A stretch of DNA of 64,000 bases. Source: Actinophytocola algeriensis (GTDB taxonomy: Bacteria > Actinomycetota > Actinomycetes > Mycobacteriales > Pseudonocardiaceae). The stretch spans positions 124,001 through 188,000 of the forward strand of contig NZ_JACHJQ010000012.1 in assembly GCF_014203735.1 (NCBI RefSeq). Reading direction: 5' to 3'. This document shows, piece by piece, positions 1,442 through 39,695 of the stretch; positions within the stretch are counted from its first letter, which is position 1; every line of letters starts with the position of its first letter. The position numbers and the translations under genes are program-made. Under the pieces are notes generated by a model. That model saw only the letters and a program-made list of their open reading frames with translations, made no database searches and was not told where the DNA came from.

Positions 1442-3717
1442 AGGTCCGCCAACCCCGCCCGCGTGAGCATCTCGTCGATCGCCTCCTCGATGGCCGCGCC
1501 GCCGGCCACCAGCACCGGGTCGGTCCGCACCCGCAGCAGTGCGCGCCCGGACCCCTCGCCGCCGCGGCGTGCCACCAGCGCGGTCGCGAACCGCTCCCGT
1601 TCGGCGGGCGGGAAGAACTCGAACGCCTGCCGCAGCGCGGGCAGCGCCACCAGGAAGTCGTGCGCGGACAACGCGCTGACCAGCTCGTCGAGCACCGACG
1701 TGAGGCCGTCGTCGGCCAGCACCTCTTCGCGGGCCACCGCGAACAGCCCGGCGAGCCAGTCACCGAGCACCGATGGCGACCGTGGCACGGCGTCGGCTGC
1801 GGCCACCGGCTCGCCGAGCGCCCAGCACAGGCCGAGCCCGGCGCCACGCAGGTCCGGTGGCACGTCCTGGTTCGCGAACAGCCGGCCGCCGACACCGACA
1901 GCCGTCGCCCTGTCGAGGTCGAGCGCGGCACCACCGTCGCGGACCGCGTCGCGGACCGCGGCGAGCGCACGCAGCCGCGCCGGTTCTGCGGGGACGTCAC
2001 CGCCGCGTACGCCTTCGGCCAGCCACAGCGCGCGCGTGGTCGCGGTGGTGACGACCGCGCCCAGCAGCGGGCTGCCCGCGGTGCCGAGCAGCCGGTCGTG
2101 CCGCCACAGCCCGAGAGCGACCCGCAGCGCCGCACCGAGCGGTCCCAGCTCCCGCGCCGACCGCACCCCGGCGGCGACCCGTGTGGTCAGGTCACCGGCG
2201 AGGTCCGCGAGCCCGCACAGCGCCGCGTCGTAGAGCAGTCCGGCGAGTGCGCCCACGTCGTCGCGGCCATCGGCCAGGGCGGCGAGCGTGGCCGCGGCCG
2301 CGTCCGGCAGGGTGCCGCCGCGGGCGGCCGCCTCGATGAGCGCGGCCTCGCGGTGATCGGAGCCGGTGAGCTGCCAGCGCTCGGCCGCGGACGCGTCCCG
2401 GCCGGCCGACGGCCCGGACTTCCGTGCCACACCGGGGATGCCGAGCACCCGCAGCCGGTGCAGGACGCGGCTGCGGTACAGGTCGGTGCCGTCGGTGAGG
2501 TCGAGCCGGACGTCCCGGTCGCCGTCGAGGCCGAGCGCGGCCAGCTCCGCGGCGACCGCGCCGACCAGGGGCGGCGCCGGGGTGTCCGGGTGCAGGCGGC
2601 CCGTGCGGTCACCGGTCAGCGCGGCGACCATCTCCACCACGACCGGGTGCGCGCCCGCTGTGAGCGGGCCACGTGCCGACCACGGCAGCGGCTGCTCCAG
2701 CGCGTCCGACACGAGCGCGCTGACCAGCCCGTCCAGCACGTCGGTGCGGGCCGGGTGCGGGTGCCCGCGCAACGCGGCGAGCCCCACGCCGAGCGCCTTC
2801 GCCGAGATCAGGTCCGCTGTGGACACCGGCTGGCGGCGGGCCCGCAGCCGCGTCACCACGTCGGCGACGAGCCCGGTCGCCGCGTCCTCCTGGCCGGACT
2901 CCCAGAGCCTCTGGTAGTAGCCGGGGGAGGGCATCCCGGAGGCGTAGCCGGTGAACGCGTCGAGTCTGCGGTTGGAGTAGGGCACCAGGTAGCTGCCGAC
3001 CTCGGTGTCCGCAGGCACGTCCGGCACCTCGGGCCATGCCGGGTCCGGGGCGGCGGTCGCGAGCCTGGCCAGCAGGGCGGGGCGGTGGAAACCGCCGACC
3101 ACCGCGACGACCGGTCCGTCGTCCCGCGCGGCCGCCGCCGCGATCCACCGCGCCATGTACTCCTCGCGGGCGGTGTCCTCGCGTCCGGCGTCCGCTTCGC
3201 CACGCACCAGGTCGAAGTACGTGGCGAGCCGCTCCGCGAGCCCGTCGTGCGGGTGTGCCTCGACCAGGTGGTCCCACAGCACGTCGACGTTGTCCACCGC
3301 GAACGCGCGGCACAGCCGCTCCGACGCCTCGGCGTAGCGGCGTTCCGCGTCGGCGTAGACGTTCTCGGACTTCGCCCCGGTCTCGCTCGCACGCCAGCAG
3401 GGCAGGTCGATGAACCGCACGTCGGCGCCCGCCGCGTGCCCGTCGGTGAGCGCGATCCACTCGGGGGAGTAGTCGCAGAACGGGGCCCACGACAGCCGGT
3501 TGCGGGTGGCGTCGCGCACGTAGCTGAAGATCGCCACTGGCGGGGTGTGCCCGAGCAGCAGCTCGCCGATCCGGCCGGAGAAGTCGGCGGGACCCTCGAT
3601 CAGCACGTGCGCTGGCCGGTGCGCGGCGATCGTCTCGCGCACCAGCCGCGCACACGCCGGGCTGTGGTGCCGGACCCCGATGACGTGGACCGGAGCCGCG
3701 TGTACCGGTGCCGCCAT
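1438..3717 (-). CDS. DUF5682 family protein (YehM-like)
   Basis: 759 residues from an ATG that overlaps the MoxR stop in an ATGA junction. The N-terminus carries GVRHHSPAC (about residues 12-20) followed by IEGPADF, and further on VAVVGGFHRPAL. These conserved histidine, glutamate and GxxH-type positions suggest a metal-dependent hydrolase fold of the TraB/EreA/TIKI kind; that is my inference, not a demonstrated activity. The rest is alanine/leucine-rich and helical, without export signal or membrane span. The longer open frame reaching back to 4443 on this strand is an overprint of the MoxR gene and was not used. The protein is always met between a MoxR ATPase and a VWA protein, so it probably belongs to the same complex. 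Confidence 0.82.
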   Translation of the reverse strand: MAAPVHAAPVHVIGVRHHSPACARLVRETIAAHRPAHVLIEGPADFSGRIGELLLGHTPPVAIFSYVRDATRNRLSWAPFCDYSPEWIALTDGHAAGADVRFIDLPCWRASETGAKSENVYADAERRYAEASERLCRAFAVDNVDVLWDHLVEAHPHDGLAERLATYFDLVRGEADAGREDTAREEYMARWIAAAAARDDGPVVAVVGGFHRPALLARLATAAPDPAWPEVPDVPADTEVGSYLVPYSNRRLDAFTGYASGMPSPGYYQRLWESGQEDAATGLVADVVTRLRARRQPVSTADLISAKALGVGLAALRGHPHPARTDVLDGLVSALVSDALEQPLPWSARGPLTAGAHPVVVEMVAALTGDRTGRLHPDTPAPPLVGAVAAELAALGLDGDRDVRLDLTDGTDLYRSRVLHRLRVLGIPGVARKSGPSAGRDASAAERWQLTGSDHREAALIEAAARGGTLPDAAAATLAALADGRDDVGALAGLLYDAALCGLADLAGDLTTRVAAGVRSARELGPLGAALRVALGLWRHDRLLGTAGSPLLGAVVTTATTRALWLAEGVRGGDVPAEPARLRALAAVRDAVRDGGAALDLDRATAVGVGGRLFANQDVPPDLRGAGLGLCWALGEPVAAADAVPRSPSVLGDWLAGLFAVAREEVLADDGLTSVLDELVSALSAHDFLVALPALRQAFEFFPPAERERFATALVARRGGEGSGRALLRVRTDPVLVAGGAAIEEAIDEMLTRAGLADL

Positions 3718-4805
3718 CAGCCGGGCAGCCGCAGCCGGGCGCCGTGCAGGTCGGCCCACGCCTGCGTGTGCTTGCGGCGGGCCGCGTCGTGCTCCAGGTA
3801 GCGGCGCAGCTTCGCGAGGTCGTCCGGGCTGTCCTTCGCGGCCGTCCCGGCGAGGCACTCGACGATGTCCTCGGCCGACCCCGCCTCGCCGCGCAGGTAC
3901 CAGCCACGCAACCCGACGGCGTGCGCGACCGACACCGCCTCCGCCGTGCTGAGCACAGTGGACAGTCGTTCGCCGCCGCCGCGTCCGGTGCCCCCACGCA
4001 GCTCGCGGAACGTGGTGACCAGGACCTCGAGCACGTCCCTGCGTTGCGCGACCGGCACCCCGGAGCGGCGCAACAGCTCCGCCGACTCCGTCTCCACCAG
4101 CGCGAGCTCGGTGTCCAGGTCGGGAATCGGGAACACGGTCTCGAAGTTGAAGCGGCGCTTGAGCGCGGCGCTCATCTCGTTGACGCCCCGGTCGCGGGTG
4201 TTGGCGGTAGCGATGACGTTGAACCCGTCCTTGGCGAACACCATCGCGTCCGGCCCGGTCAGCTCCGGGATCGCCAGCACCCGGTCGGACAGCGGCGACA
4301 GCAGCGAGTCCTGCACTTCGAGCGGGCAGCGGGTGATCTCCTCGAACCGGATCACCTTGCCCTCGGACATGCCGCGCAGCAGCGGCGCGGGCACCAGTGA
4401 CCGGGTCGACGGCCCTTCCGCGACGAGCATCGCGTAGTTCCACGAGTAGCGGATCTGGTCCTCGGTGGTGGCCGCGCCGCCCTGGATGGTCAGCGTCGAC
4501 ACCCCGCTCACCGCGGTCGCGATCAGCTCCGACAGCAGCGACTTCGCCGTGCCCGGCTCACCGACGAGCAGCAGGCCGCGGCTGGTGGCGAGGGTGACCA
4601 GCGCACGGTCCACAAGGGACGGGTCGCCGACGAACTTGTTGCGCACGCCCAGCTTGGCGTCGCCGACCACGAACCGGCGGGCCGCGTCGAGGCTCAGCGC
4701 CCAGCCGGGCGGCCGGGGCGCGGTGTCCTGTTCCCGCAGCCGGGTCAGGTCGTCGGCGAACCGGACCTCAGCGGGCGGGCGCTGCAGGTCGTCCTTCGCG
4801 GTCAC
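3717..4805 (-). CDS. MoxR-type AAA+ ATPase (YehL-like)
   Basis: 362 residues. Walker A is GEPGTAKS at 82-89; further conserved AAA+ features are IRFEEI (Walker B-like), the sensor-1 region IATANT, and NEMSAALKRRF, where an arginine finger is expected. MoxR ATPases act as chaperones that use ATP to remodel or load partner proteins, usually with a VWA adaptor. The GTG start at 4805 sits in a GTGA overlap with the WGR gene stop, and the gene ends in an ATGA overlap with DUF5682, so all three are co-translated. The large upstream extension of the open frame (to 5462) is antisense-like overprint of the WGR gene. It is the only NTPase in the operon and so the likely motor of the putative complex. 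Confidence 0.88.
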   Translation of the reverse strand: MTAKDDLQRPPAEVRFADDLTRLREQDTAPRPPGWALSLDAARRFVVGDAKLGVRNKFVGDPSLVDRALVTLATSRGLLLVGEPGTAKSLLSELIATAVSGVSTLTIQGGAATTEDQIRYSWNYAMLVAEGPSTRSLVPAPLLRGMSEGKVIRFEEITRCPLEVQDSLLSPLSDRVLAIPELTGPDAMVFAKDGFNVIATANTRDRGVNEMSAALKRRFNFETVFPIPDLDTELALVETESAELLRRSGVPVAQRRDVLEVLVTTFRELRGGTGRGGGERLSTVLSTAEAVSVAHAVGLRGWYLRGEAGSAEDIVECLAGTAAKDSPDDLAKLRRYLEHDAARRKHTQAWADLHGARLRLPG

Positions 4806-7800
4806 TTGGCGCTCACCAGTTCGGTCAGGTCGGCCAGCAGCTCGCTCGCCGACACCGGGTCGAGCGTGCTGAACGGGGTGCGTTCCGTGCCCCACCAGCC
4901 GTCGTGGTCGGTGGACAGGAACACGCGCCGGATCTCCTGGTTCTCGCCGAGCATGGTGGGCTCGCCCGCGACGATGCCCTCCTCCAGCTCGATGACCCCG
5001 AACCAGCCGTCCGCGAGTGGCTTGACCACACCGGCCTCGACGCCACCGTCCTGTGGCGCGGTGCGTTCCCAGCCGCGTTTGGTGAGACCGAGGACGCGGC
5101 CGACGCTGACCGTGGTCTTGTCGAACCGCGCCAGCGTCAGCGCGGTGCGCTCCTCGTCGGTCAGCGCCAGGACGGGCCTGCCGAGCTGCGGGAACGGTTG
5201 CAGGATCTCGTAGTCGGCGAACACCTCCGCCCACGTGGCCAGCGCGTCGCCGAGGTGGATCGGGTGTGCGACGCCGACAGTCGTGCCCTCTGGCGGGGTG
5301 TAGGTGTCGTCGCCTGCGTCGGCGAGGGTGCGGTCCTCGGCCAGCCGGAACGCGCCGACGAGCGTGCCGTCGGTGTCGTAGACGCCCCACACGAGCCTGC
5401 GCACGACGTGCCAGAGCAGCGGGTGCCCGGAGAAGTAGGTGGCGAAGTCCTCGTGGCTCCACCGGCGCCCCGACACCATGGCCCGCTCCAGTCGCGTGAT
5501 CTGGTCGCTCGCGAGGGTGCGGACGTCCTTCTTCAGCCCGGCGAAGCGCTGGTAGGCGGCGGTCGCGAGGTCCTGGTCGTCCTTCGCGCCCGGCTTGGGC
5601 AGCGCCTTGCGGCGGGTGCCGTCCTCGTCGGACACGGTCGGCCGCAGCGCCTCGTCGAAGCCGACGACGAACTTCCTCGGGCCGTAGTCGAGGACCAGCG
5701 TGCCGTCCGCTGCCAGCCCGAGGTCGGGCACGAGCCGGTCGGCGAGCTGCTCCGCTGTCAGGCCGAGGTTGGCCGCGACCAGCTCGATCTTCTCCTTGGC
5801 GCGTTGCTTGAGCCCGGCGAACTTGACCTTCTGCGCGATGCCGTTGAGGTGCATGAGGGCCACGTCGGTGCCGATCTCGGCGAGGACGTCCAGGCCGGTG
5901 ACCGCGCGGGCGTGCCCGCCCTCACCCGGCCAGGCGCGGATGATCGGCGAGAGCCGCCGCACGGTCTCGTCGTCGCCCACCGCGGCCAGCGCGACGAGTG
6001 CCCAGCCGTCCTTGGACGGCATGCCCGCCTTGCGCCACGCCTCGAACACCGTCCACCCGAACTCGGCGAGCGACGCCGGATCGCACGCCTCGGCGACCTG
6101 TGCGACCCCACCGTAGGGCTCGTCGGGTTTGCCGAGCGCGAACATGGTCAGCACGTCGGCGGTCGAGGCGCGGGGGAGCGCGACCTCCTCGTCCCGCAGG
6201 CGGATCTGCGGGAGGGCGGCCGGGTCGGCCCAGGCGCCGGGGACCGGCAGTTTCCTCGGCAGCAGTTCGAGCGGGTCCGTGGCGAGGATCCGGGCCACCC
6301 CGTCCTCGGCCTCCTCACCGGCGAGCCGCTTCGTCTCGGCGACCACGTCGTCGGTGCCCTCGTGCGCGGCGAGCGCGCGCAGTGCCGTCTCCGCCACGTC
6401 GCGGGTCTTGCCCGCCTTGCCGAGCGCGGCGGGCAGCAGGTAGGGCAGTGTCGCGAGGCCGTGCCGCAGCAGCCAGGACCGCACGATCGGCCGGGCCGCC
6501 CGCCGCCGCACCAGCGCCGTCGCCATGATCGTCGCCACCTCGATGTCCAGCACCGGTACGAGCGCCTTGATGGCGTCCTGCCCGTTGCTCGTGGTCACCG
6601 CCGAGATGACCGAGGGGACGGCTTCGGCGTCGAACCGGGCCAGCAGGGCGGTACCCCACCCCTCGGCGTCGTAGATCAGCTTGGGTTGCCAGGTCTTGAG
6701 CACCGGCAGGGCCAGTTCGACCGGTGCGTGCAGCAGCACCGAGCGCATCACCCAGTCGTTCCGCGTGTACCGCTCCAGCTCGTCCACCCAGTCCGTGCCC
6801 GGCTCCGTGTGGCGGTCGAACGCGATCCGCGCCCGCAGCGCGAGGCCGTGTGCCTGTTCTCCGTCCGCCCACACGACGCGGGTCGGCGCGGGCACGGTCA
6901 GGCCGTTCAGCACCACCGGTGGCGCCGCCGTGCGCTCGCGGGTCCACGGCGGACTGGCCAGTACGGGAGGCAGCAGGTCAGCGGGTGCTTCGGGCAGCAG
7001 GACCACGCCCTCCTGGGTGGCGAGCGCGGCGTCCCTGGCCGCCTCGGGCAGCGACGGCACGATGTCGTCGAGCAGCTCGGGCCGTGCCAGCAGGTGGGCG
7101 CGCAGCAGTTCGACCGCCACCTGGTCGCCCTCGGCAGCGGCCTCGGCCAGCAGCCGGGTGGCGCGCACCGGGTAGCGCGGCACGGCCTCCTGCAGCGCGG
7201 CCCGGTACGGCGCCTTGCCGGCATGGGCGACCAGCGACCGGAACGCGTCGTCGGTCGGCATCGCGACGATCGCCGCGAGCAGGCGCTTGCGCACGTCGTT
7301 CTCGGCGTTCTCGGACCACCGCGCGAGGATCGGCGCGATCGGCGGGCCGATGGTGCGCACGAGCGTCGGCAGCGTCCTGGACTGGAACTGGATCGCGTGG
7401 CCTGCGAACGGGAGGTCGTCGAGCTGGTCCACGCGGTACACGGCGGACAGGTACAGCGAGGTCAGCACGCGGTCGAGGTGGTCGGCGTCGGCGGGCAGCT
7501 CGTCCACCCACGCGGTCTCGGTCGGTGCCAGGAACGCCGCGACGAGCCGGGTGTTGGCGTCCGTGCGGAGCGCACCGATCGTGGCGACGGCGCGCGCGTA
7601 CTCGTCGTCGGCCGCCGCCGCGAGCGCCGTGCGCATCTCGCCGAGCACGTCCGGCCCTGCCCAGCGCCACGGCAGGTGCTCGCTGTCGGTCGTGTGGCGC
7701 AGGTTGATGGCGCCCGACCTGGAGTTGGTGCTCCCGAAGGTGAACGTCGCCGTCCGCATCGACGCCTCGACCGCGAACAGCAGGCCGTGGTCGGCCAGCC

Positions 7801-10357: not shown

Positions 10358-17634
<7,277 letters not shown>

Positions 17635-17638
<4 letters not shown>

Positions 17639-19236
17639 CACAGACGAGGACCACGGTCCGCCACTTCCCGCTCTACATCGGCGGCGAGCGGGTCGACACC
17701 GACGAGCGGACGTACGGCATGAGCGCCCGAGCCGTACTGGGACCCAGCGGTGCGGACACCGCGAACCTGTACCGCCTGCTTCGCGAAGGCACGGAAGAGG
17801 AAGTGCACGCGCACCCGCACGTGCTGTGCTCCGCGGCGTTGTCCACCCCGGAACAGGGGGATGCGGCACTGCGCGCGGCCGCGGCGGCCGCACCCCGGCT
17901 GCGCGCGATGTCGATCGACGAGCGTCTTGCCTTCGTGCAGGATCTCCACGAGGGCTTTCTGGCGCACCGCGACGAGCTGGCCCGGCTCCTGCACCTCGAG
18001 GGATGCCCACGGGTGCTGGCGAACGCCATCTTCACCGCGGTGCTGGACGTCCTCGGGCAGGACAGCCTGGACCTCGCCCGTTCGTTGCTGCGGCAGGAGA
18101 TCACCACGTCGCGGCACCGGATCGTGCTGCGTCGCCAGCCCGACGGTGTGGTGTGCGTCGACCCGTCGGCGAACGCGCCGCTGTTCGCCGTGATCGCCAT
18201 GCTCGTCATGCTGGCGGGGAACGCGGTGGTGATCCGGGTGCCGAGGAGTTGTGTGAGCTCGCTGAGCTATGTCCTGCACACCGTCGTCATCCCGGCGCTC
18301 GAGGCCCGCGGCGCACCCGCGGGCACACTCAACGTGCTGTGCGCAGACTACGAGAGCACGATGCGCCAGTGGCTCGACAGCCCGCTGGTCGACACCGTCT
18401 ACTACTTCGGTTCCACCGAGAACGGCCTCGCCCTGGAGCGCGAATGCGTGGCACGGGGCAAGAAACCCATTCTCGAACTGTCCGGCAACGACGGTGTGCT
18501 GGTGTGGCACGACGCCGATCTCGACCACGCCACCGCGGCGTTGACGGAGTGCTTCTACGGCTCGGGTCAGACGTGTTTCAGCCCGAAGTACGTCATCGCC
18601 CATCCGGCCATCGCCGACGAACTGCTCAGCCGCGTCGCGACGGCCGCCGAGGCGCTGCGGCCCGGTGACCCCGCCGAGACGGACACCGTCCTCAGCCCGG
18701 TCCTGCGCGCGACCGCCTTCCACCGGACGCTGACCGACGCACTCCAGGCCGGGGCGACGCGGGTGTGCGGTGGCGCCCGGTTGAACGTCGACGGCGAACC
18801 CGACCCGAACGGGATGTTCATCGCACCGACCGTGCTCCGCGTCGACGGTTTCGCCGACGCGGAGCGGATCTCCGCGGTGCGCGGCGAGGCGTTCTTCCCC
18901 ATGCTGTCCGTCGTCGTGCCGGCGGACGGCCCGCACCTGCTGGACAAGTGCCTGGCGTTCCTCGACGGCAACCCCTACGGCCTGCGGAACTCCCTGTGGG
19001 CGGCGGACACCGACGTGATCGACCGGTTCACCACCGAGGTCTCCAACGGCGCGCTGCTGAAGGTCAACGACTCACACATGGCGCAGGTCCCGGGACTGCC
19101 GATCGTCGGCGGCACAGGTAAGAGCGCGGGCATCCACGGCGAGGCCGCCTATCCGTTCCTGCGGGCAAGCCGCCTGCAGGCGGTGGCGGTCGCCACCACA
19201 CGCACCCATCCGTGGGCGGCCATCGGCAATTCCTAG
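17635..19236 (+). CDS. Aldehyde dehydrogenase-superfamily protein coupled to PKS
   Basis: 533 residues, beginning at an ATG inside the PKS stop (ATGA). The ALDH fold is clear: catalytic C314 in GSGQTCFSPKY and general base E281 in LELSGNDG, plus a C-terminal region with SNGALLKVND. The usual ELGGK is altered to ELSGN, and the N-terminus is about 40 residues longer than a typical ALDH. It could oxidise an aldehyde product, or work in reverse as a CoA/ACP-thioester reductase like the superfamily member LuxC. Since the PKS has no thioesterase, reductive or oxidative release of its product is the attractive inference. The stop codon TAG lies inside the left arm of an inverted-repeat element. Function beyond the superfamily is uncertain. 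Confidence 0.85.
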
Positions 19237-28700: not shown

Positions 28701-30500
28701 ATGCGAACACGCCGGATCGGATCGGCACTATCGGTGGGGCTCCTGCTCGCCGCGGCACTCACGACCGGTATCGCCCCGGCGGGCGCCGAAAGAGCGGGCG
28801 AGCAGCCGTTGGCGGTCGGCCGGGGTGGCGCGGTCGTGTCCGACACGCTCGAGTCGACCGAGGCTGGGATCGAGGTGCTGCGCCGAGGCGGGACGGCGAC
28901 CGACGCGGCGGTCGCGGTCGCGGCGACGCTCGGCGTCACGGACCCGTTCGTGGCCGGTCTCGGCGGTGGTGGCTTCTTCGTGCACTACAACGCGCGCACC
29001 CGCGAGGTCTCGACCATCGACGGCCGCGAGACCAATCCGATGGCCGGCGACGAGACGATGTTCATCGACCCGGAGACCGGTGCGCCCTATCCGTTCGGCA
29101 CCGCCGTGACCAGCGGTCTGTCGGTCGGTGTGCCCGGCATGCTGGCGACGTGGGAGCGTGCGCTGCAGCGGTGGGGCACCCGCGATCTCGGCGAGTTGCT
29201 CCGGCCCGCGATCCGGGTCGCCGAGGACGGCTTCCCGCTCGATGCCGCCGTTCGCGGCCAGATCGCCTCGAACGCCGACCGGCTCGCCCAGTTCACGTCC
29301 AGTGCCGAGCTGTTCCTGCCCGGCGGTGCGGTGCCCGAGGTCGGCACGCTGATGCGCAACCCGGACCTGGCCGACACCTACCGGGAGATCGCGGCACACG
29401 GCACCGACGCCTTCTACTCCGGTCCGGTCGGCCGCGACATGGTCGCGGCGGTGCGGACGCCGCCGCTCGCGCCGGACGCCACCATCGACCCGCCCGCCGG
29501 TCTGATGACCGAAGCCGACGTCGAGGCCTACCGCGCGATCGACCGCGCCCCGACGCACGTGCGCTACCACGGCTACGACGTCTACGGCATGGCGCCGCCG
29601 TCCAGCGGCGGCATCACGGTGGGGGAGGCGCTGAACATCCTCGAGCGGTTCGACCTGTCCGACATGGACCGCGCGCAGGCCCTGCACCACTACCTGGAGG
29701 CCAGCAGGCTCGCCTTCGCCGACCGGAACCGCTACATCGGCGACGCGGACCACGTGGACGTGCCGCAGCGGCAGCTGCTCTCGGACCGCTTCGCGCGGCA
29801 GCGCGCCTGCGAGATCGACCCGGCCGCGGCGGGCGTCAGCCCGGTCGCACCGGGTGACCCGTTCGGCGGCGCTGCGTGCCGGCAGGCCGGGGTGGCCACG
29901 CCGAGCAAGCCGGAGGGCACGCACACCAACCACTTCGTGGTCAGTGACCGGTGGGGCAACGTCGTCTCCTACACCAACACGATCGAGCAGCTCGGCGGCA
30001 GCGGGATCGTCGTGCCGGGCCGCGGGTTCCTGCTCAACAACGAGCTGACCGACTTCAACTTCGCGCCAACCCAGGGCGACGCGCCCGACCCGAACCTGCC
30101 CGCGCCCGGCAAGCGGCCGCGGTCGAGCATGTCGCCGACGATCGTGCTCCACCACGGCAAGCCGTTCCTCGCGGTCGGCTCGCCGGGCGGGTCGACGATC
30201 ATCACCACCGTCCTGCAGATCCTGGTCAACCGCCTCGACTTCGGGATGAGCCTCCAGGAGGCGATCGCCGCACCACGCGCCACCCAGCGCAACACGCCGA
30301 CGACCCTGGCCGAGGCCGGGTTCATCGACTCGCCGACCGGCACGCGGTTGGCGGCGCTGGGGCACAGCTTCGACAGGAGTACGGGGATCGGCATCGCGGC
30401 GGGCCTGGAGTTCGGGCCTCGGGGGCTGGTCACCGCGGTCGGCGAACCGACCCGCCGCGGCGGCACCTCCGCGGCGGTCCTACTGCCCACCCGCCGCTGA
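28701..30500 (+). CDS. ggt: Secreted gamma-glutamyltransferase (glutathione hydrolase)
   Basis: 599 residues, the usual GGT size. A signal peptide (MRTRRIGSALSVGLLLAAAL, cleavage near APAGA) directs export. The single precursor should self-cleave before T407 (in EGTHTNHFVVSD), the N-terminal nucleophile of the small subunit. Other conserved features are GRETNPMAG, the PPSSGGIT loop, RSSMSPTIV (SSMxP, substrate binding) and GSPGGSTIITTVLQ (oxyanion loop). It would hydrolyse or transfer the gamma-glutamyl group of glutathione-like compounds outside the cell. In an actinomycete that uses mycothiol, the natural substrate may be other gamma-glutamyl peptides. It stands alone as a transcription unit. 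Confidence 0.9.
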   Translation: MRTRRIGSALSVGLLLAAALTTGIAPAGAERAGEQPLAVGRGGAVVSDTLESTEAGIEVLRRGGTATDAAVAVAATLGVTDPFVAGLGGGGFFVHYNARTREVSTIDGRETNPMAGDETMFIDPETGAPYPFGTAVTSGLSVGVPGMLATWERALQRWGTRDLGELLRPAIRVAEDGFPLDAAVRGQIASNADRLAQFTSSAELFLPGGAVPEVGTLMRNPDLADTYREIAAHGTDAFYSGPVGRDMVAAVRTPPLAPDATIDPPAGLMTEADVEAYRAIDRAPTHVRYHGYDVYGMAPPSSGGITVGEALNILERFDLSDMDRAQALHHYLEASRLAFADRNRYIGDADHVDVPQRQLLSDRFARQRACEIDPAAAGVSPVAPGDPFGGAACRQAGVATPSKPEGTHTNHFVVSDRWGNVVSYTNTIEQLGGSGIVVPGRGFLLNNELTDFNFAPTQGDAPDPNLPAPGKRPRSSMSPTIVLHHGKPFLAVGSPGGSTIITTVLQILVNRLDFGMSLQEAIAAPRATQRNTPTTLAEAGFIDSPTGTRLAALGHSFDRSTGIGIAAGLEFGPRGLVTAVGEPTRRGGTSAAVLLPTRR

Positions 30501-33800: not shown

Positions 33801-35334
33801 CTGCCTGCAGCTGCGGGCGGACAACGCCTACCAGGTCGCCAACTTCCGCAACCAGATCGACGTCTGCCGCACCAACAAGGCGCCGAGCACCGCGTTCCGC
33901 TCGTTCGGTGACGTCCAGGGCAAGCTGATCACCGAGAACGCGATCGACGACGCGGCGTTCGCCGCCGGTCTCGACCCGGTCGACGTGCGGGAGAAGAACC
34001 TGTACAAGCGCGGGGACGTCACTCCGTTCGGGCAGAGCCTGACCTACTGCTACATGCGTGAGGTCTGGTCGTACCTGCGGGAGAAGAGCCGCTACGACGA
34101 GCGCAGGGCGCGGGTCGCCACGTTCAACCGGGAGAACCGGTGGCGCAAGCAGGGCATCGCGATGATGCCGGTGAAGTACGGCTCCGGCTACAACCTGGTC
34201 CAGCTCGAACAGGCGGCCGTGCACGTCGCGGTGTACGCGGGTGACGGCAGCGTGGTGATCCACCAGGGCGGCGTCGAGATGGGGCAGGGCCTCACCACCC
34301 GGGTCGAGCAGGTCGCCTCCTACGTGCTGAACGTGCCGTTCGACCTGCTGCGGATCGAGCTGCCGAACACCGGGGTGGTCCCGAACCCGACCAGCACGGG
34401 CGCCTCCACCGGCACGTCCTACAGCGCCGAGGCGGTCAAGCAGGCGTGTGAACGGCTGCGCGGGCGGCTCGTCGAGTTCGGCTACCGGATGCTGGAGGAG
34501 AACGGTCCGGACTGGTGCTGTGCCAACCAGATCGACTTCTGGAACTACGGCAAGCAGGGCTGGGCCACGCCGTTGACCAACCCGGTCACCAACACCACCC
34601 GGTTGATCTGGCAGAACCTCGTCCAGGTCGCCTACCAGCAGCGCGTCGACCTGGTCGTGTCGGGCACCGTCCCCATGACCGGGGGCGAGGACCCGGTGCC
34701 CGCCCTGACCTACAAGCCGATGGCCGAGCAGCACGACATCCCGGGCGTCGAGGTCGATCGCACGGCACGGCCGGGCGGGGCGGTCGACCAGTTCTGCGAT
34801 TTCACCTACTCCGCCGCGTGCGCCACGGTCGAGGTCGACATCCTCACCGGCGAAGTGAAGGTGCTCAGCGCCGACATCGCCTACGACATCGGCTGGAGCC
34901 TCAACCCCGCGCTGGACATCGGCCAGGTGGAGGGCGCGTTCGTGCAGGGCATCGGCTACGTGCTGACCGAGGACCTCGTGTTCCAGCCTGCGGGCACGCC
35001 AGGCGAAGGCCGGCTCAACACGGTCAACACCTGGCGGTACAAGCCGCCCGCGGTGACCACGATCCCACTGGAGTTCAACACCCACCTGTTCCCGCGCGAC
35101 CTCGCGGCCGACGTGCCGGAGAACCCGGCGAACGTGTTGTCCGCCAAGGAGGTCGGCGAACCGCCGCTGGTCCTCGCGACCAGTGTGTTCCTCGCGGTCA
35201 AGGACGCGGTGCGGGCCTCGCGGCTCGAACGCGGTCTCGACGGTCTGTTCCGGATGGACGCGCCCGCGACGGTGCAGGAGGTCCGTCGCGCGTGTGCTGT
35301 CGACCTGTCACTGAACCAGGAGCGTGTGTCATGA
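30847..35334 (+). CDS. Fused molybdenum hydroxylase (xanthine dehydrogenase family)
   Basis: 1,495 residues holding all three parts of a xanthine-oxidase-family enzyme in one chain. Plant-type [2Fe-2S]: C43, C48, C51, C73. Second [2Fe-2S]: CGYC at 171-174 and CRCTGYRPI; between the two is an extra segment of about 50 residues rich in Ala/Arg/Glu (about 105-155). FAD domain: NAATLAGN near 390. Moco domain: QVGGGYGGKTEQ, TAFRSFGDVQGK, QGGVEMGQG and the active-site Glu in KEVGEPPLVLA. Substrate-pocket positions differ from xanthine dehydrogenase (TAFRGFGGPQ is replaced, GGKET reads GGKTE), so hypoxanthine/xanthine should not be assumed. No Moco chaperone (XdhC) is nearby. It overlaps the DyP-GRE gene by ATGA, so the two are made together. 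Confidence 0.85.
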   Translation: MTDTVSFYLNGERVTLENPAPDLLLIDYLRSPDVGLTGAKKGCGQGGCGACTVILSTRDAGTGEFTHRSINSCLRPVCSLDGLALTTIEGTGETVRPAPEHLAHQLAYSRTAAPAVYVTSREADAAKAASQSRAEARTATARALDDVSPEGELTGMNPVAYRLAANNGTQCGYCTTGFVMNMCALLDRQPSPTKRQIEDAFDGNLCRCTGYRPILTGLETFADDWTPVDEEHRMKCLTEEALSAMTPAAGARIPLPPDDGPAPGPHRLVSGGRVWVRPATLAELGALLREFDDMPTRMVNGNTSYGVYPDEVRAAEVLIDIQLVPELLGHTVGEQWADVGAATTYSELIELLDRVRSDRDLAENTAVGAMWLMSRRTAGTIVRNAATLAGNTMLVLAHVEDGEPFPSDLLTTLVAVGAEVTVWQALTDGEPRRLPLAELVGEVLADPACLRGLVILRYHLPLVADDDEAVFAQKVALRDVNAHSLVNVTTALRLDGTVVEAATVVFGGIAPVPWHAEATEERLRSGPLSLDDFPLLAATLRDEVRAELSRWRDRMASVPWEGITDTYRVDLAVSFLYKAIVNALVAFSPESVPPRDWSAGVSTWGRWPLSGGRQSYVIQDWKAPVSQPYIKLMAFYQATGKVTYTHETPVSPRAVNAAFVQSRMPLADYHFRLPHSEDPVDRAVLAEFLTAHRPGFVALVGHEELPDHGINLQGMGGDQPLLAQRRVSYVGQAIALVVAETEQQAHDIAAYVTERCVGYAAVDDWPPEWRDPVLSIEQAIELGSVFPDYPKSASFNSHIWRITRPDSDLSWSELDDPLDRAVTVRSVTVDGIECVVVGNTQSTGGQAHFYLETQACVVEPMDGDRWRVVPSTQSPMEMHQTAAMALGVEYHRVEVDVPQVGGGYGGKTEQARFVVGPALVAANALDRPVRLVLPRDADTAMIGKRHAVYGRYQVAIDRTGLLHGLDTAMWADGGAFYDCSFIVTNCLQLRADNAYQVANFRNQIDVCRTNKAPSTAFRSFGDVQGKLITENAIDDAAFAAGLDPVDVREKNLYKRGDVTPFGQSLTYCYMREVWSYLREKSRYDERRARVATFNRENRWRKQGIAMMPVKYGSGYNLVQLEQAAVHVAVYAGDGSVVIHQGGVEMGQGLTTRVEQVASYVLNVPFDLLRIELPNTGVVPNPTSTGASTGTSYSAEAVKQACERLRGRLVEFGYRMLEENGPDWCCANQIDFWNYGKQGWATPLTNPVTNTTRLIWQNLVQVAYQQRVDLVVSGTVPMTGGEDPVPALTYKPMAEQHDIPGVEVDRTARPGGAVDQFCDFTYSAACATVEVDILTGEVKVLSADIAYDIGWSLNPALDIGQVEGAFVQGIGYVLTEDLVFQPAGTPGEGRLNTVNTWRYKPPAVTTIPLEFNTHLFPRDLAADVPENPANVLSAKEVGEPPLVLATSVFLAVKDAVRASRLERGLDGLFRMDAPATVQEVRRACAVDLSLNQERVS

Positions 35335-38300
35335 CGGAATCCGTGCTGCGGGAACAGACGGTCGCCGCGGCCGACGAACAGAGCCACGACATCTGGTCGC
35401 ACGTGCAGCGGGGGCTGGTCTACCCGGCGCCACACGCGCTGTTCGCCACGTTCTGGGCGGACGAGAGCGGCAGGCCGCTGACCCGCGCCGTGCTGCGGCG
35501 AACGGTGGCGCGGCTACGCCTGCGCATCCACGAACAGCACGGCAGCTCCAACACCACGGCGGTCGCGGGTGTCGGGTTCCGGCGGTGGGTGCACTGGTGC
35601 GCGGAGGACGGGTCCGCGTTGCCCGCCGGGATGCGGGTGTTGTTCCCGTCCTCCGGCGAGCCGGAGGTCTCGACGGTGTTCGAGCGCTCCTCCGGCACGT
35701 TCACCGACTCCGGGGCCGACCTGTGGTTCCACATCAAGTCCGACGTGGCGAAGCACTGCCGCGCGGTGTTCGACCACCTGGCCGAACTGCTCGAACGGGA
35801 AGGGTGCGTCGACGCGCGGCGCACCGTGTACCAGGAGGCGGCCACCAAGTCGCTGCGCCCCGACGGGCGCGGCGGCAAGGTCGTCGGCAGCCGGTTCTCC
35901 GAGAACCTCAACAACCCGACGGATCCGGTGACGCTGCGCAGGCACGTGATCGTCGGCGAGGAGGACCCGGCCCACCTCGGTGGGTCGTTCGCGCTCGCGC
36001 AGCGGTTCACGATCAACTGGGAGCGGGTGCTCGACCACCCGCCCCAGGGCATCGAGGACATGGTCGGCCGCACCACCTCGGACACCTTCATCCCGTCCAA
36101 AGAGGACCGGAGTCACATCAAACGGGCCCGGGTACAGGACGAGCAGGGCGACTCGACTCCGGTGCTGCGGCTGAGCCTGCCGTTCGGGCAGTCCCGGGCG
36201 GTGACCGACGACGCGATGCGGGAGAAGGGCGCGAGCCTGCGCGACGAGGCCGGGGTGTACTTCGCGGCGTTCAGCCGCAGCACACACGTGCTGGAAACCA
36301 TCATGAACCAGCAGATCGGGGGCGAGCCGGGGTACATGGCCGACCGGCTGCTCGCCAACGTGCACTCCGATCTCGGTGGCTTCTACTACGTGCCGAGCCA
36401 GGACGAGCTGGGGCTCGACCCACTGGAGATCGCCGACCTGGACGAGACCGACTGGAAGCGTTTCCCCGGGGTGGACTGGCGCAGGCTCGACCGGCACTTC
36501 AACCAGCGGTCGGCCAACGGCTACATGTACTACAACCACAAGGACTACCTGTTCCGGATGGCCACGATGACCGGCCCGGACCGGGACAAGTACCTGCCGC
36601 CGTCGCGCCGTGTGCTGGAGTTGCTGGCCACCACGTTCTCGCGCTGGCAGGACAACTGGTACTTCGACCACCGCCAGCAGGAGCCGCACCACCTCGAGCA
36701 CTACCTGCGGAACAGGTTCGCCGACGGCGACCCGGACGCCGAGGTCGAACGGATCATGGCGCTGCCCGTGGCGGAACGGATGGGCTGGGCGATCAAGGTC
36801 GGTCTCGGTGAGGTGTTCGCCGGGACGGACTACGGGTTCCGGGGCAGGCGGCGCGACCAGGACGGCAACTGGGTCAACGGCGCGGACACCTACCGGATCA
36901 GCCCCCAGGAGCTGATCGTCGGCGCGATGCCGAACCTGAGCCTCGGCCAGGGCCGGTACGTCATCGACTACGCGCGGGAGGACGAGCAGCTGCCCAACTT
37001 CATCCTCGGGCTGAGCTCGTCCTCGGGCGTCGGTCACGTCGTGCCCGGCTTCCAGCGTGCGCTGGAGCTGGGCATCGGGGGACTTGCCGAGTGGGTGTCG
37101 TCGCGGCTGAACGCGTGCGGGCCGGCAGAGGAGGAGAAGGCATCGTTCCTGCGGGGTGTGCTGCTGGCGCTGGAGGGGGTGGCCGAGTACTGCCGGTCCT
37201 ACGCGCGGCTCGCCAGGGAACTCGCGGACCGGCCGGGACAGACCGAGACCGACAACCTGCTCGCCATCGCGGACCGGATGGACCGGCTGGCGACCGAGCG
37301 GCCCGCCTCGATGCTCGAGGCCGCCCAGCTCGTGTTCACCCTGCACTCGTGCCTGCACCTGGTCGGCGAACCCACCGCGGTCGGCCGCCTCGACCAGCTG
37401 CTGTACCCGTTCTACCGGTCCGAGGTGGACGCGGGGACCCTCGACCGGGACCGGGCGCAGGAGATCATCGACTGTTTCTGGATCAAGCTGGGCGAGAAGG
37501 TGCAGCCAAACCGGTTGTTCCTCGATGACCACCAGCCCTGGGGCAACCTGGCCATGGGCGGGATGAGCGGCAACTACCCGCAGGGCGGGTCGAACAACCA
37601 GTGGATCCAGCAGGTCACCGTCGGCGGCACCGTCGCAGACGACAGCCCGGGTGCCGGTGCACCCGCGTACAACGACATCACCCTGCTGTGCCTGCGCGCG
37701 GCGCGACGGCTGCCGCTCAACGCCCCGTGCCTTTCGCTGCGCACCCGGCCGGACATGCCGGTGAACTACGCCGAGGAGGCGGCACTCGCGCTGCTGTCCG
37801 GTGGCGCGCACCCCATCCTGCTCAACGACGACAAGGTGATCCCCGGTCTGATGGACAGCGGGGAACGGATCGGCGCGGGGGCACAGGTCGCGGACAAGGC
37901 CGGTGCGCGCTGGCGCAGCAAGGTCGACATCGTCGCCGCCCGCGACTACGCCTGCGACGGCTGCTACGAGCCGCAGTTCACCGGGCGGAACTGGTTCACC
38001 CTCGGTGGCGTAATCACCCTCCAGGCCCTGGAGGCCGCGCTCAACCGCGGCAAGTCGTGGGCGACGGCGGGCCCCATGTACTTCCGGGGTCAGAAGGTCT
38101 CGTTCATGTCCGAGGACCCGGCGCAGATCACCACCTACGCGCGGCTGGAGGAGCTGTTCATCGGGCACCTGCGGTGGATGTACGCGCGGCAGACCGACCA
38201 GCTGCTCGGCGTGTTCGGGCAGATGAGCGCCGTGTGCCCGTCGCCGCTGCTGTCGTGTTTCATCGACGACTGCGTCGACAAGGGCATGGACTACTACGCG

Positions 38301-39230
38301 GGCGGCGCGCGGTACAACGTGGTCGGCCCGTGCTTCACCGCGCTCGCCAACACGATCGACTCGCTGTGGGCCATCCGCCACATGGTGTTCGACCCCCGCA
38401 CGGCGGTGACCTCGCTGCCCGAGCTGGCCGAGGCACTCATTTGCGACTGGGGCGAGTCGATGACCGAACCGTTCGTGAGCACGCTGGCCGGTCCGGCCAG
38501 GATCGCGGCCAGGGCCGACCGGTTCCGGCGGCTGCGCGCGGTGGCGATGAGCCTGCCCAAGTACGGCCGGGGCGACGTCGAAGTCGACCGGTTCGGCGAC
38601 GCGCTGCTGTCCCGCGTCGCGGCAGCGGCGGTGTCGGTCTACACCGACCCGGTCGAACCGACCGCACGGAAGATGGTGTCGCTCGCGCAGCGGTACGGCA
38701 CGGCCGAGCACCCGTTCGGCCTGCAGATCCAGCCGGGCACCGGCACGTTCGAGAGCTACCTCGAGTTCGGCGCGATGTGCGGCGCGTCGGCCGACGGCAG
38801 GCGCAGCGGGCAGCCACTCGCGTCGGACCTCAGCCCCGCCCCGGGGTATGCCGACCAGCCGGTGGCCGGGCGGGAGGAGCCGATGCTCACGACGCTCGCC
38901 GGGTTCACCGGCGACGGCACCGCCGCCATGTGGAACGTGGCACCGACCGACTACAACATCGGCGAGGACTTCCCGGCCGACGCACTGTCCGAGGTGATCA
39001 GGGCCTTCGCCTCGGGCGTCGGCTCGAACCTGCTGACCGTCACCTGTGCCGACCGGGAGACCTTCGACGGTGCGTGCCGTGACCCGGAGCGCTACGACCT
39101 GGTGCGCGCCAGGATGGGCGGCTGGTCGGAGTTCTTCGTCGCGATGTTCCCCGCGCACCAGCAACAGCACCTGCGCCGCCCGGTCAGCGTCCCGGACGCG
39201 CCGACGCCGGAGCCGAGGACCGGCGACTGA
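35331..39230 (+). CDS. DyP-type peroxidase / glycyl radical enzyme fusion
   Basis: 1,299 residues, uninterrupted, with AGGAG 8 nt before the ATG, which overlaps the upstream stop. Residues about 70-350 resemble a dye-decolorizing peroxidase: IxSK-EDRSHI with H262 as the likely haem ligand, LRLSLPFGQSR and GVYFAAFSRS. The distal GxxDG is replaced by GSRFSENLNNP (186-196), so the usual catalytic Asp is missing. From about 420 to the end is a PFL/diol-dehydratase-type glycyl radical enzyme: QELIVG near 526-531, thiyl C878 with E880 in CDGCYEP, and the radical loop RMGGWS with G1264, where the canonical RVxGY has Trp for Tyr. No activating radical-SAM enzyme is in the window. Reaction unknown; each half is separately convincing, and I know of no characterised protein with this fusion. 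Confidence 0.82.
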   Translation: MTESVLREQTVAAADEQSHDIWSHVQRGLVYPAPHALFATFWADESGRPLTRAVLRRTVARLRLRIHEQHGSSNTTAVAGVGFRRWVHWCAEDGSALPAGMRVLFPSSGEPEVSTVFERSSGTFTDSGADLWFHIKSDVAKHCRAVFDHLAELLEREGCVDARRTVYQEAATKSLRPDGRGGKVVGSRFSENLNNPTDPVTLRRHVIVGEEDPAHLGGSFALAQRFTINWERVLDHPPQGIEDMVGRTTSDTFIPSKEDRSHIKRARVQDEQGDSTPVLRLSLPFGQSRAVTDDAMREKGASLRDEAGVYFAAFSRSTHVLETIMNQQIGGEPGYMADRLLANVHSDLGGFYYVPSQDELGLDPLEIADLDETDWKRFPGVDWRRLDRHFNQRSANGYMYYNHKDYLFRMATMTGPDRDKYLPPSRRVLELLATTFSRWQDNWYFDHRQQEPHHLEHYLRNRFADGDPDAEVERIMALPVAERMGWAIKVGLGEVFAGTDYGFRGRRRDQDGNWVNGADTYRISPQELIVGAMPNLSLGQGRYVIDYAREDEQLPNFILGLSSSSGVGHVVPGFQRALELGIGGLAEWVSSRLNACGPAEEEKASFLRGVLLALEGVAEYCRSYARLARELADRPGQTETDNLLAIADRMDRLATERPASMLEAAQLVFTLHSCLHLVGEPTAVGRLDQLLYPFYRSEVDAGTLDRDRAQEIIDCFWIKLGEKVQPNRLFLDDHQPWGNLAMGGMSGNYPQGGSNNQWIQQVTVGGTVADDSPGAGAPAYNDITLLCLRAARRLPLNAPCLSLRTRPDMPVNYAEEAALALLSGGAHPILLNDDKVIPGLMDSGERIGAGAQVADKAGARWRSKVDIVAARDYACDGCYEPQFTGRNWFTLGGVITLQALEAALNRGKSWATAGPMYFRGQKVSFMSEDPAQITTYARLEELFIGHLRWMYARQTDQLLGVFGQMSAVCPSPLLSCFIDDCVDKGMDYYAGGARYNVVGPCFTALANTIDSLWAIRHMVFDPRTAVTSLPELAEALICDWGESMTEPFVSTLAGPARIAARADRFRRLRAVAMSLPKYGRGDVEVDRFGDALLSRVAAAAVSVYTDPVEPTARKMVSLAQRYGTAEHPFGLQIQPGTGTFESYLEFGAMCGASADGRRSGQPLASDLSPAPGYADQPVAGREEPMLTTLAGFTGDGTAAMWNVAPTDYNIGEDFPADALSEVIRAFASGVGSNLLTVTCADRETFDGACRDPERYDLVRARMGGWSEFFVAMFPAHQQQHLRRPVSVPDAPTPEPRTGD

Positions 39231-39413
39231 CCGAGCCGCCCGATCTCGAGCAGGACCCGGCGCGGCTCGGTGGCGAACATCAGCTGATCGGTGGAGTTCG
39301 CAGTAGCCGCGACACGATCGGGTCGTCTTGCGGCCACAACTGTAGTTGATCTTGATTCGCCGGTTGGGAACTGCTGAAGTGTGCGCTTCCCAACCAGGAA
39401 AGGCAAAGTACAC

Positions 39414-39695
39414 ATGACTCGCACTCGCATGACTGTCGCCGCGGCGGCACTGGCTTTTCTTGGGGTGCTCGCCACCCCCGCTTTCGCCAGCGCGGAGCTG
39501 TCCGGCAACGCCCCCATCGCGAGCAGTGCCGACTCGCGCGCGACCAGCGACCTTCCGCTCGTCGGCGGCCTGCTTGGTGGAAGTGGTGCCGGTGGCCTGA
39601 CCGACGGCCTTCCGCTTGTCGGCGGCCTGCTTGGTGGAAGTGGTGCCGGTGGCCTGACCGACGGCCTTCCGCTCGTCGGCGGCCTGCTCGGTTAG
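39414..39695 (+). CDS. Small exported Gly/Leu-repeat protein
   Basis: 93 residues. A clear Sec signal peptide (MTVAAAALAFLGVLA, cleavage after ATPAFASA near 27) is followed by a short linker and the repeat LPLVGGLLGGSGAGGLTDG at 47-65 and 66-84, with a half unit at 85-93. The ATG at 39414 follows AGGAAAGG. Such hydrophobic Gly/Leu secreted peptides are widespread in actinomycetes, where they are unannotated or compared with chaplin-like surface proteins; I infer a cell-surface or aerial-growth role with low certainty. It stands alone and ends at a strong terminator. Confidence 0.7.
   Translation: MTRTRMTVAAAALAFLGVLATPAFASAELSGNAPIASSADSRATSDLPLVGGLLGGSGAGGLTDGLPLVGGLLGGSGAGGLTDGLPLVGGLLG
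39552..39692 (+). repeat. 57-bp in-gene tandem repeat, 2.5 copies
   Basis: Units at 39552-39608 and 39609-39665 differ at a single synonymous position (CTC versus CTT in the codon for leucine), followed by a partial unit at 39666-39692. The near-identity at the DNA level points to recent duplication or gene conversion, and makes copy number prone to change. Confidence 0.85.

Follow-up and report, generated by a model that had tools for sequence, protein, structure and literature searches.

How does a glycyl radical enzyme (GRE) obtain its radical when it is fused to a haem peroxidase? GREs perform hard C-H chemistry and are regarded as dependent on anoxic conditions and on a radical-SAM activase. 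In the window (the whole stretch of 64,000 nucleotides analysed here), one gene encodes a DyP-type peroxidase domain followed by a GRE domain.

At the gene level, we confirmed with profile matches and full-length relatives that a single stop-free frame joins both domains, as the earlier note had claimed (Table 1). Its ATG shares four bases with the stop of the upstream gene. A first search found full-length fusions with 61-78% identity in three of 99 other genomes. A single scan retrieved 17 loci from five phyla (Actinomycetota, Myxococcota, Cyanobacteriota, Pseudomonadota, and Bacteroidota); the frame was open across the fusion in 16 of them and broken in the other one (L032). In the four pairs tested, dN/dS was at most 0.41 for the DyP, linker, and GRE parts alike. 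Thus, the DyP-GRE fusion is real, and purifying selection acts on each half. A frameshift joining two genes, which the earlier note had named as one finding that would undo its reading, is ruled out together with mis-assembly: the whole fusion recurs in many independent assemblies and evolves under constraint. Since it is present in five phyla with purifying selection on both halves, it is not a frameshift artefact.

Table 1. Features of the fusion gene and of the genes upstream, in positions of the window (aa, amino acids)
Feature	Position	Strand	Basis
DyP-GRE fusion gene, 1,299 aa	35331..39230	+	open frame; Pfam and NCBIfam; full-length relatives
DyP haem-peroxidase domain, residues about 22-360	35394..36410	+	TIGR01413, Dyp_perox_C, alignment with 12 stand-alone DyPs
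E191, at the DyP distal Asp position	35901..35903	+	alignment with 12 stand-alone DyPs
H262, predicted proximal haem ligand	36114..36116	+	invariant in 18/18; matches conserved His of 12 DyPs
R280, predicted distal Arg	36168..36170	+	invariant in 18/18; alignment with 12 DyPs
Glycyl-radical-enzyme domain, residues about 424-1299	36600..39227	+	PFL-like, TIGR01774, Foldseek to 5i2a and other GREs
C875-D-G-C878-Y-E880, thiyl cysteine loop	37953..37970	+	alignments; main-clade conservation
R1261-M-G-G1264-W1265, glycyl radical loop	39111..39125	+	aligned with RVAGY of 5i2a and 1r8w
Xanthine dehydrogenase/aldehyde oxidase-like molybdoenzyme, one chain, 1,495 aa	30847..35334	+	4-base overlap with fusion gene
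Gamma-glutamyltransferase-like gene, upstream	28734..30500 (start may be 28701)	+	same strand as fusion

For the peroxidase half, TIGR01413 (NCBIfam) scored 114.4 bits against a cut-off of 100.5 over residues 117-360, and Dyp_perox_C (Pfam) matched residues 194-358 at 6.8e-16. Conservation among the aligned fusions starts at W22. We take B-type to be the DyP label for this domain. Besides the domain itself, the proximal His and the distal Arg expected of a DyP were found: H262, already picked out from the sequence alone, aligns with the conserved DyP His that is presumably the proximal ligand, and R280 aligns with the Arg that we assume to be the distal one. The distal Asp in GXXDG is absent from the window's protein. 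In its place, E191 of FSENLNNP aligns with the distal Asp of FVDGTENP; this position is Glu in 17 of the 18 aligned fusions and Asp in the remaining one. The earlier note was right that the Asp motif is replaced, but the acid is conservatively kept, and the alignment rules out its total loss. An Asp to Glu change is known among DyPs, where it is reported to lower the activity (PMC7611857). The fusions resemble B-type DyPs in the proximal His, the distal Arg, and the IGR motif, and the window's domain also in its TIGR01413 score above the cut-off. The fusions differ in having Glu for the distal Asp (17/18) and Ser, Gly, or Thr instead of Asn two residues after the distal Arg, and in the window's protein the DyP is followed by some 870 residues of GRE domain.

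For the radical-enzyme half, PFL-like (Pfam) matched residues 559-1101 at 1.6e-104, and TIGR01774 aligned at 563-1283 with 8.3e-69, which is under its own cut-off. The structure models gave a partial answer to the check that the earlier note had suggested. The GRE barrel core was found in the model, with Foldseek matches to 5i2a (2.8e-30, TM 0.67 on target) and other GREs. The haem-binding part of the DyP had a pLDDT below 50 in both models, as had the Gly loop, and no DyP was among the 50 matches listed per Foldseek search.

The assignment of C878, E880, and G1264 as GRE residues was borne out by alignment with known GREs. In 5i2a and 1r8w, the counterparts of C878 and G1264 are the Cys of GC(V)E and the Gly of RVAGY, which we take to be the radical residues of these two enzymes. 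C878, E880, and G1264, together with H262 and R280, are invariant in all 18 aligned fusions. The PFL-like barrel domain comes with the mid-chain thiyl Cys expected of a GRE. Among main-clade fusions, C878, Y879, and W1265 were present in 27/27, as was the extra cysteine C969; the other extra cysteine, C875, was present in 26/27. The loop reads R-[MTQ]-G-G-W in all fusions but L117, and RVGGW in both L117 and its DyP-less relative L116. The published C-terminal fingerprint of GREs is RVXG[FWY] (PMC11528403): the Gly and Trp of RMGGW fit it, and the Val position is Met (Thr or Gln in some relatives). The Trp in place of Tyr, which the earlier note had singled out, is present but less odd than was stated, since it fits this fingerprint and occurs in L116, which bears an activase. 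For the same reason, W1265 is no mark of haem activation, and its role as a relay specific to such activation is weakened.

When compared to diol/glycerol dehydratase and choline lyase GREs (5i2a, 1r8w, and CutC), the window's domain has the same barrel, thiyl Cys-x-Glu, and C-terminal Gly loop at about 20% identity. In an alignment read by eye, H281 and D447 of 1r8w, presumably substrate residues, correspond to E680 and T890, whereas H164 is kept as H569. Six conventional GREs have I, V, or L after the Cys and Tyr after the Gly; the fusions have an aromatic residue and Trp, respectively. Unlike these dehydratases and lyases, the fusions carry an N-terminal DyP, and most of their hosts lack an activase over the cut-off.

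The statement that no activase lies nearby holds, and it extends genome-wide for the families searched (TIGR02494, TIGR02493, and Fer4_12). We analysed 30 bacterial fusion genomes (19 plus 11 more), including G109, G459, G484, and G485 with broken or partial fusion copies only; these are not 30 independent cases, because close relatives are included. A radical-SAM GRE activase over the TIGR02494 cut-off, the usual partner of a GRE, was absent from 27 of the 30, the window's genome among them. The three exceptions (2/19 and 1/11) have the activase adjoining a conventional RVSGY-type pyruvate formate-lyase (PFL) gene. In the 19-genome set, TIGR02493 exceeded its cut-off in the same two genomes and gave only sub-cut-off matches in the other 17. 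Fer4_12 matched in all 19, strongly in seven, where the proteins are perhaps NrdG-like; no match above about 41 bits was found in the other 12, including the window's genome. This genome presented no TIGR02494 match, a best TIGR02493 score of 25.7 bits, and a best Fer4_12 score of 28.3 bits, and its single PFL-like gene is the fusion gene. Six-frame phmmer searches of 32 loci (31 distinct places) detected activases at two places only, at L116 and next to the conventional PFL gene in Chromobacterium. With a distance of only some 7.5 kb between the latter activase and the fusion, cross-activation is possible in Chromobacterium.

Some relatives swap or re-pair the partners. L116 is the only DyP-less member of the 30-row GRE clade (SH-aLRT 100), in a quick tree where L116 and L117 are long branches. 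Its GRE gene is overlapped by an activase gene that scored 183.8 bits, over the TIGR02494 cut-off. Profiles built with and without L117 and the Hymenobacter gene detected no DyP among the 155 frames of its locus, even with E values as high as 10 allowed. In L117 (Bacteroidota), a GRE that is sister to that of L116 (support 98) carries a fused DyP of a distant type, which we assume to be C-type. The best solved relative of this DyP is Alr1585 (5c2i, 1.5e-75), and it has no BLASTP similarity to the window's DyP. In Hymenobacter (Bacteroidota), GRE and DyP are separate adjoining genes, both with broken frames. Judged from these sequences, DyP and activase look interchangeable, with a single DyP-less member bearing an activase (L116), and GREs of one clade have apparently been paired with different DyP types more than once.

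Regarding the genomic neighbourhood, no gene besides the fusion was common to most of 19 loci. Xanthine dehydrogenase was rejected as a partner of the fusions in general: in the loci examined, it was found only in the window and in G035, where the C-terminal part of a similar molybdoenzyme gene lies upstream of an apparent fusion remnant. Of the 28 loci for which genes had been called or annotated, eight (L023, L024, L027, L029, L031, L036, L111, and L118) have a phosphoester or nucleotide hydrolase (5'-nucleotidase, nuclease, or phospholipase) adjoining the GRE or DyP gene or one gene off; this is a hint, from family scans that covered part of the neighbours. As for a defence-system reading, P0001 had no PADLOC match at E 0.001.

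At the mechanistic level, we consider it somewhat probable that the radical is generated by the haem domain, from peroxide or oxygen, and handed to the GRE site. Hydrogen peroxide (or oxygen together with an electron source) would convert the DyP haem into a ferryl species, and the hole would reach the GRE domain via Trp or Tyr residues. The radical would form on G1264 or straight on C878, and the C878 thiyl would take a hydrogen atom from the substrate, as other GREs do. In this way, a thiyl radical could be made aerobically without S-adenosylmethionine or an iron-sulphur activase. Hole transfer from the haem to Trp or Tyr is described for DyPs (PMC10646903), and the oxygen-dependent cofactor of class I ribonucleotide reductase yields a thiyl radical over a long range (PMC8463856). 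Among the points that speak against haem activation are the putative activase reported in a fungus with the fusion (PMC5041501), the activity loss reported for the Asp to Glu change (PMC7611857), and the other radical-SAM proteins present in each of the 19 genomes.

Replacement of the activase and protection of the radical had both been put forward before, as speculation. Replacement is favoured over protection because 27/30 genomes lack the activase, L116 has one adjacent, and L117 carries a DyP of a second, distant type on a sister GRE; the putative activase reported in a fungus counts against it. In the protective role, the DyP would clear peroxide or oxygen around the GRE, shielding a radical made otherwise; the fusion hosts that are named, which we take to be mostly aerobes, would suit this role. 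The stability of the glycyl radical under strictly anoxic conditions (PMC11528403) and the peroxide induction of the fungal fusion gene (PMC5041501) would fit too. However, shielding still requires an activator, and the same 27 genomes have none over the TIGR02494 cut-off, whereas DyP-less L116 does have one; we regard it as unlikely.

Alternatively, the GRE domain could be activated by an uncharacterised or NrdG-like radical-SAM protein whose gene lies elsewhere, with the DyP performing a separate or coupled reaction. The Fer4_12 matches in all 19 genomes (strong in seven), the sub-cut-off TIGR02493 matches in 17, and the putative PFL activase of a fungus with the fusion (PMC5041501) are consistent with this. 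However, Fer4_12 matches did not exceed about 41 bits in 12 of the 19 genomes, the window's included, and the flanks examined contained no activase except that of a conventional PFL, which makes a separate activase improbable in our judgement. The GRE barrel may also have been reused without a radical, serving haem chemistry as a scaffold for substrate binding or redox reactions. The R-[MTQ]-G-G-W loop of the fusions other than L117 points in this direction, and the conserved extra C875 and C969 would suit thiol chemistry. Yet C878, E880, and G1264 are invariant in 18/18, and the sister GREs L116 and L117 retain RVGGW, the former with its activase, so we give radical-free reuse little credence.

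If radical generation by the haem domain holds, the fusion would be like class I ribonucleotide reductase in using an oxygen-derived metal oxidant from which a radical travels a long distance to a Cys of the active site (PMC8463856). It differs in having haem, one chain instead of two subunits, and no ribonucleotide reductase domain among the Pfam matches. Aminoacyl radical enzymes are likewise a recently found departure inside the GRE superfamily (PMC11528403); they have an altered radical residue and keep the radical-SAM activase, whereas the fusion keeps the Gly and has apparently replaced the activase. The chances seem even that the fusions represent a new class of glycyl/thiyl radical enzymes, reached apparently more than once, in which a haem peroxidase and not a radical-SAM activase makes the radical aerobically.

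The fusion cannot be regarded as unreported. A DyP-PFL fusion was published in 2016 with its function described as 'elusive' (PMC5041501), and this was the only paper on it that we found in the open-licence PubMed Central literature, from the parts of the texts consulted. According to it, fused DyP B-PFL proteins occur in distantly related prokaryotes and eukaryotes, with transfer between bacteria and fungi. The window's protein shares the architecture of these fused proteins of Chaetomium and bacteria, with an N-terminal DyP and a C-terminal PFL domain. One host, the fungus Chaetomium cochliodes, is reported to have a putative PFL activase, which the paper pairs with the fusion as the two required parts; the fungal fusion gene responded to hydrogen peroxide with a 3-fold and to peroxyacetic acid with an 18.5-fold induction (PMC5041501). 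This induction is compatible with peroxide use and also with protection. That paper presumes a separate PFL activase, and the bacterial absence of activases, the DyP-less relative with an activase, and the second DyP type do not appear in its consulted parts. In titles and abstract openings of the open-licence PubMed Central literature, we found neither haem-driven GRE activation nor DyP/activase interchange. Thus, what is new here is the activase absence in 27/30 genomes, the DyP-less activase relative, and the second DyP type; the fusion itself was already known.

Finally, if the proposal is true, haem-driven GRE chemistry would take place in air in cyanobacteria, myxobacteria, and actinomycetes, carried out by an enzyme of one chain whose activation does not depend on anaerobic conditions. 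The evolutionary change of radical source would become testable. The fusions would then stand to pyruvate formate-lyase-like enzymes as class I stands to class III among ribonucleotide reductases.

The frame at 35331-39230 of the window translates into a single 1,299-residue protein. The earlier note had read it as a DyP-type haem peroxidase domain and a glycyl radical enzyme (GRE) domain in one chain, and this reading stands, with both halves matched by profiles: TIGR01413 (residues 117-360, above cut-off) and Dyp_perox_C in the N-terminal third, and PFL-like (1.6e-104) and TIGR01774 (563-1283) in the remainder. The solved GREs nearest in sequence are propanediol dehydratase (5i2a), glycerol dehydratase (1r8w), and choline lyases. 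At the structural level, we ran AlphaFold2 on window residues 100-1299 (mean pLDDT 62.7, without the first 99 residues) and on the Alteromonadaceae copy L036 (1,188 aa; 60.8). The proposed GRE fold was confirmed for its core, which was confident in both models and matched GREs in the PDB. With the 17-row alignments used, two regions scored a pLDDT below 50 in both models: the part of DyP that binds haem and the C-terminal segment that carries the Gly loop.

H262, R280, C875, C878, Y879, E880, G1263, G1264, and W1265 were invariant in an 18-row alignment. Across 27 main-clade fusions, C878, Y879, C969, W758, and W1265 were invariant, and C875 was Ala in Asticcacaulis. Alignment with 12 stand-alone DyPs placed H262 as the proximal His, R280 as the distal Arg, and E191 at the distal Asp place; DyPs with Glu there are described, with lower activity (PMC7611857). 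In six conventional GREs, the Gly is followed by Tyr and the Cys by I, V or L; in the sister GREs L116 (without DyP) and L117 (fused to a distant DyP type), Trp occupies both positions. Thus, the two motif oddities stressed earlier (distal Asp, Trp after Gly) are weaker than they had been put, since E191 aligns at the former and L116 and L117 share the latter.

The fusion is rare. A full-length match was found in 4 of 100 genomes searched, including the window's own. A single scan across named genomes yielded 17 loci, two of which (L021 and L026) are in genomes already in the 100-genome search. Hosts in the scan were Actinophytocola, Actinoalloteichus, Saccharopolyspora (broken frame), Corallococcus, Archangium, Polyangium, Anabaena, Amazonocrinis, Reyranella, Hahella, Chromobacterium, Fluviicola, and others. 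At E 1e-150, the fusion was present in 5/348 genomes of the window's order, 11/195 of the phylum of Corallococcus, 1/292 of the phylum of Anabaena, and 2/293 of the order of Hahella. In the phylum of Fluviicola, 3/375 matched the Hymenobacter GRE piece (E 1e-50): two fusions and the DyP-less L116. The Asticcacaulis fusion and the separate Hymenobacter GRE and DyP genes are on plasmids. Phyla are intermixed in the GRE tree, which suggests horizontal transfer. Archangium (G111) carries, besides the main type, a second fusion (L060, 8287-11928; 38% identity to the first) that groups with the copies of G526, G461, G948, and L036. Remnant-like pieces were seen in two relatives of the window's genome; the one in G035 lies beside the C-terminal 449 residues of a xanthine dehydrogenase-like gene.

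Putative fusion remnants in the two related genomes
Genome	Location	Part of the fusion	Length
G035	L006, match 1501-1605	N-terminal	35 residues
G003	G003:C10:158683-158787	C-terminal	35 residues

In the window, the fusion gene shares a 4-base overlap with a single-chain xanthine dehydrogenase or aldehyde oxidase-like gene. A gamma-glutamyltransferase gene lies farther upstream, and a LuxR-family regulator gene with an AAA domain is downstream and convergent. Directly downstream is also a small, secreted-looking open frame with LVGGLLGGSGAGGLTDGLP repeats (39381-39695). Elsewhere, the stretch 10436-19236 holds the gene of a reducing polyketide synthase of ~2,400 aa (KS-AT-DH-MT-ER-KR-ACP by Pfam) and, next to and overlapping it, an aldehyde dehydrogenase-family gene. 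At 8/28 loci, a phosphoester or nucleotide hydrolase gene is a neighbour, a hint of nucleotide or phospholipid products; FGE-like genes lie just upstream (adjacent or one gene off) at 2/28. Near other copies, two genomes from the Corallococcus phylum have TPR-CHAT protease-like genes (L084, 4604-7480; L085, 14086-16944), and in G471 a lantibiotic dehydratase gene (L083, 11996-15229) converges on the fusion. The Hymenobacter GRE and DyP genes (L111) have a PLD gene downstream; divergent from them, at 2905-7190, are genes for a trypsin-like protease, a STAND-like ATPase, and hypothetical proteins. In glycerol dehydratase, H164, H281, and D447 are substrate residues. Aligned by eye, H569 matches H164; the H281 and D447 positions differ in the fusion, so diol dehydratase activity is not assumed.

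The radical-SAM activase that switches GREs on is mostly missing in fusion genomes, and the genome-wide check proposed earlier bore this out. TIGR02494 was above cut-off in only 2 of 19 fusion genomes, the same two as for TIGR02493; G109, among these 19, has a broken copy of the fusion. Of 14 further handles, 11 were fusion genomes (G485, G459, and G484 with fusion pieces alone) and one of these passed the TIGR02494 cut-off; close relatives are present among the 30. In the three exceptions, the activase adjoins a conventional gene with an RVSGY loop (G948 judged on the motif alone); in Chromobacterium it is ~7.5 kb away from the fusion. Of 14 known control genomes, 3 passed the TIGR02494 cut-off and 3 had a PFL-like gene. 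The fusion was the sole PFL-like locus in 16/19 genomes; a conventional PFL is additionally present in G002 and G110, and the second fusion in Archangium. Fer4_12 gave strong matches (at least 70 bits) in 7/19 genomes, while the remaining 12 had none above 41 bits. When 32 loci (31 distinct places, varied flank lengths) were searched in six frames, no activase was retrieved except those of L116 and the Chromobacterium PFL.

The GRE tree, built from 38 rows by a quick method, placed L116, L117, and the Hymenobacter GRE together with the fusions in one 30-row group (SH-aLRT 100). L116 and L117 paired at 98, both being long, with a long-branch warning from the program. Within this group, DyP and GRE are joined in three arrangements: the main fusions, the L117 fusion to another DyP, and the separate Hymenobacter genes, with DyP downstream of GRE and each gene split over two frames in that record. 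The L117 partner (residues 14-460) matches Alr1585 of Anabaena (1.5e-75), has the distal Asp motif intact, and by BLASTP shows no similarity to the DyP of the window. The single DyP-less member found, L116, has an activase gene that overlaps its GRE gene. The queries of a first phmmer search of L116 for DyP also missed the Hymenobacter DyP; therefore, we repeated it with two profiles, one including the Hymenobacter gene and L117, and no DyP was found in the 19.9-kb locus up to E = 10.

A dedicated radical-SAM activase is described as supplying GREs with their radical, which persists under strictly anoxic conditions (PMC11528403; PMC11574389). In DyPs, a hole can move from the ferryl species to Trp or Tyr, at ~1 V (PMC10646903). 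Among ribonucleotide reductases, class III uses an activase and class I an oxygen-built cofactor with long-range transfer (PMC8463856). The DyP domain may likewise be the activator of the GRE domain.

According to a 2016 article (PMC5041501), the fungus Chaetomium cochliodes encodes a fused DyP B-PFL protein as well as a putative PFL activase. The article reported the fusion in distantly related prokaryotes and eukaryotes, inferred its transfer from bacteria, and termed its significance elusive; the Chaetomium gene responded to hydrogen peroxide with a 3-fold induction and to peroxyacetic acid with an 18.5-fold one. The architecture is already known; what is new, with no report of it found, is the bacterial evidence for DyP and activase as alternatives.
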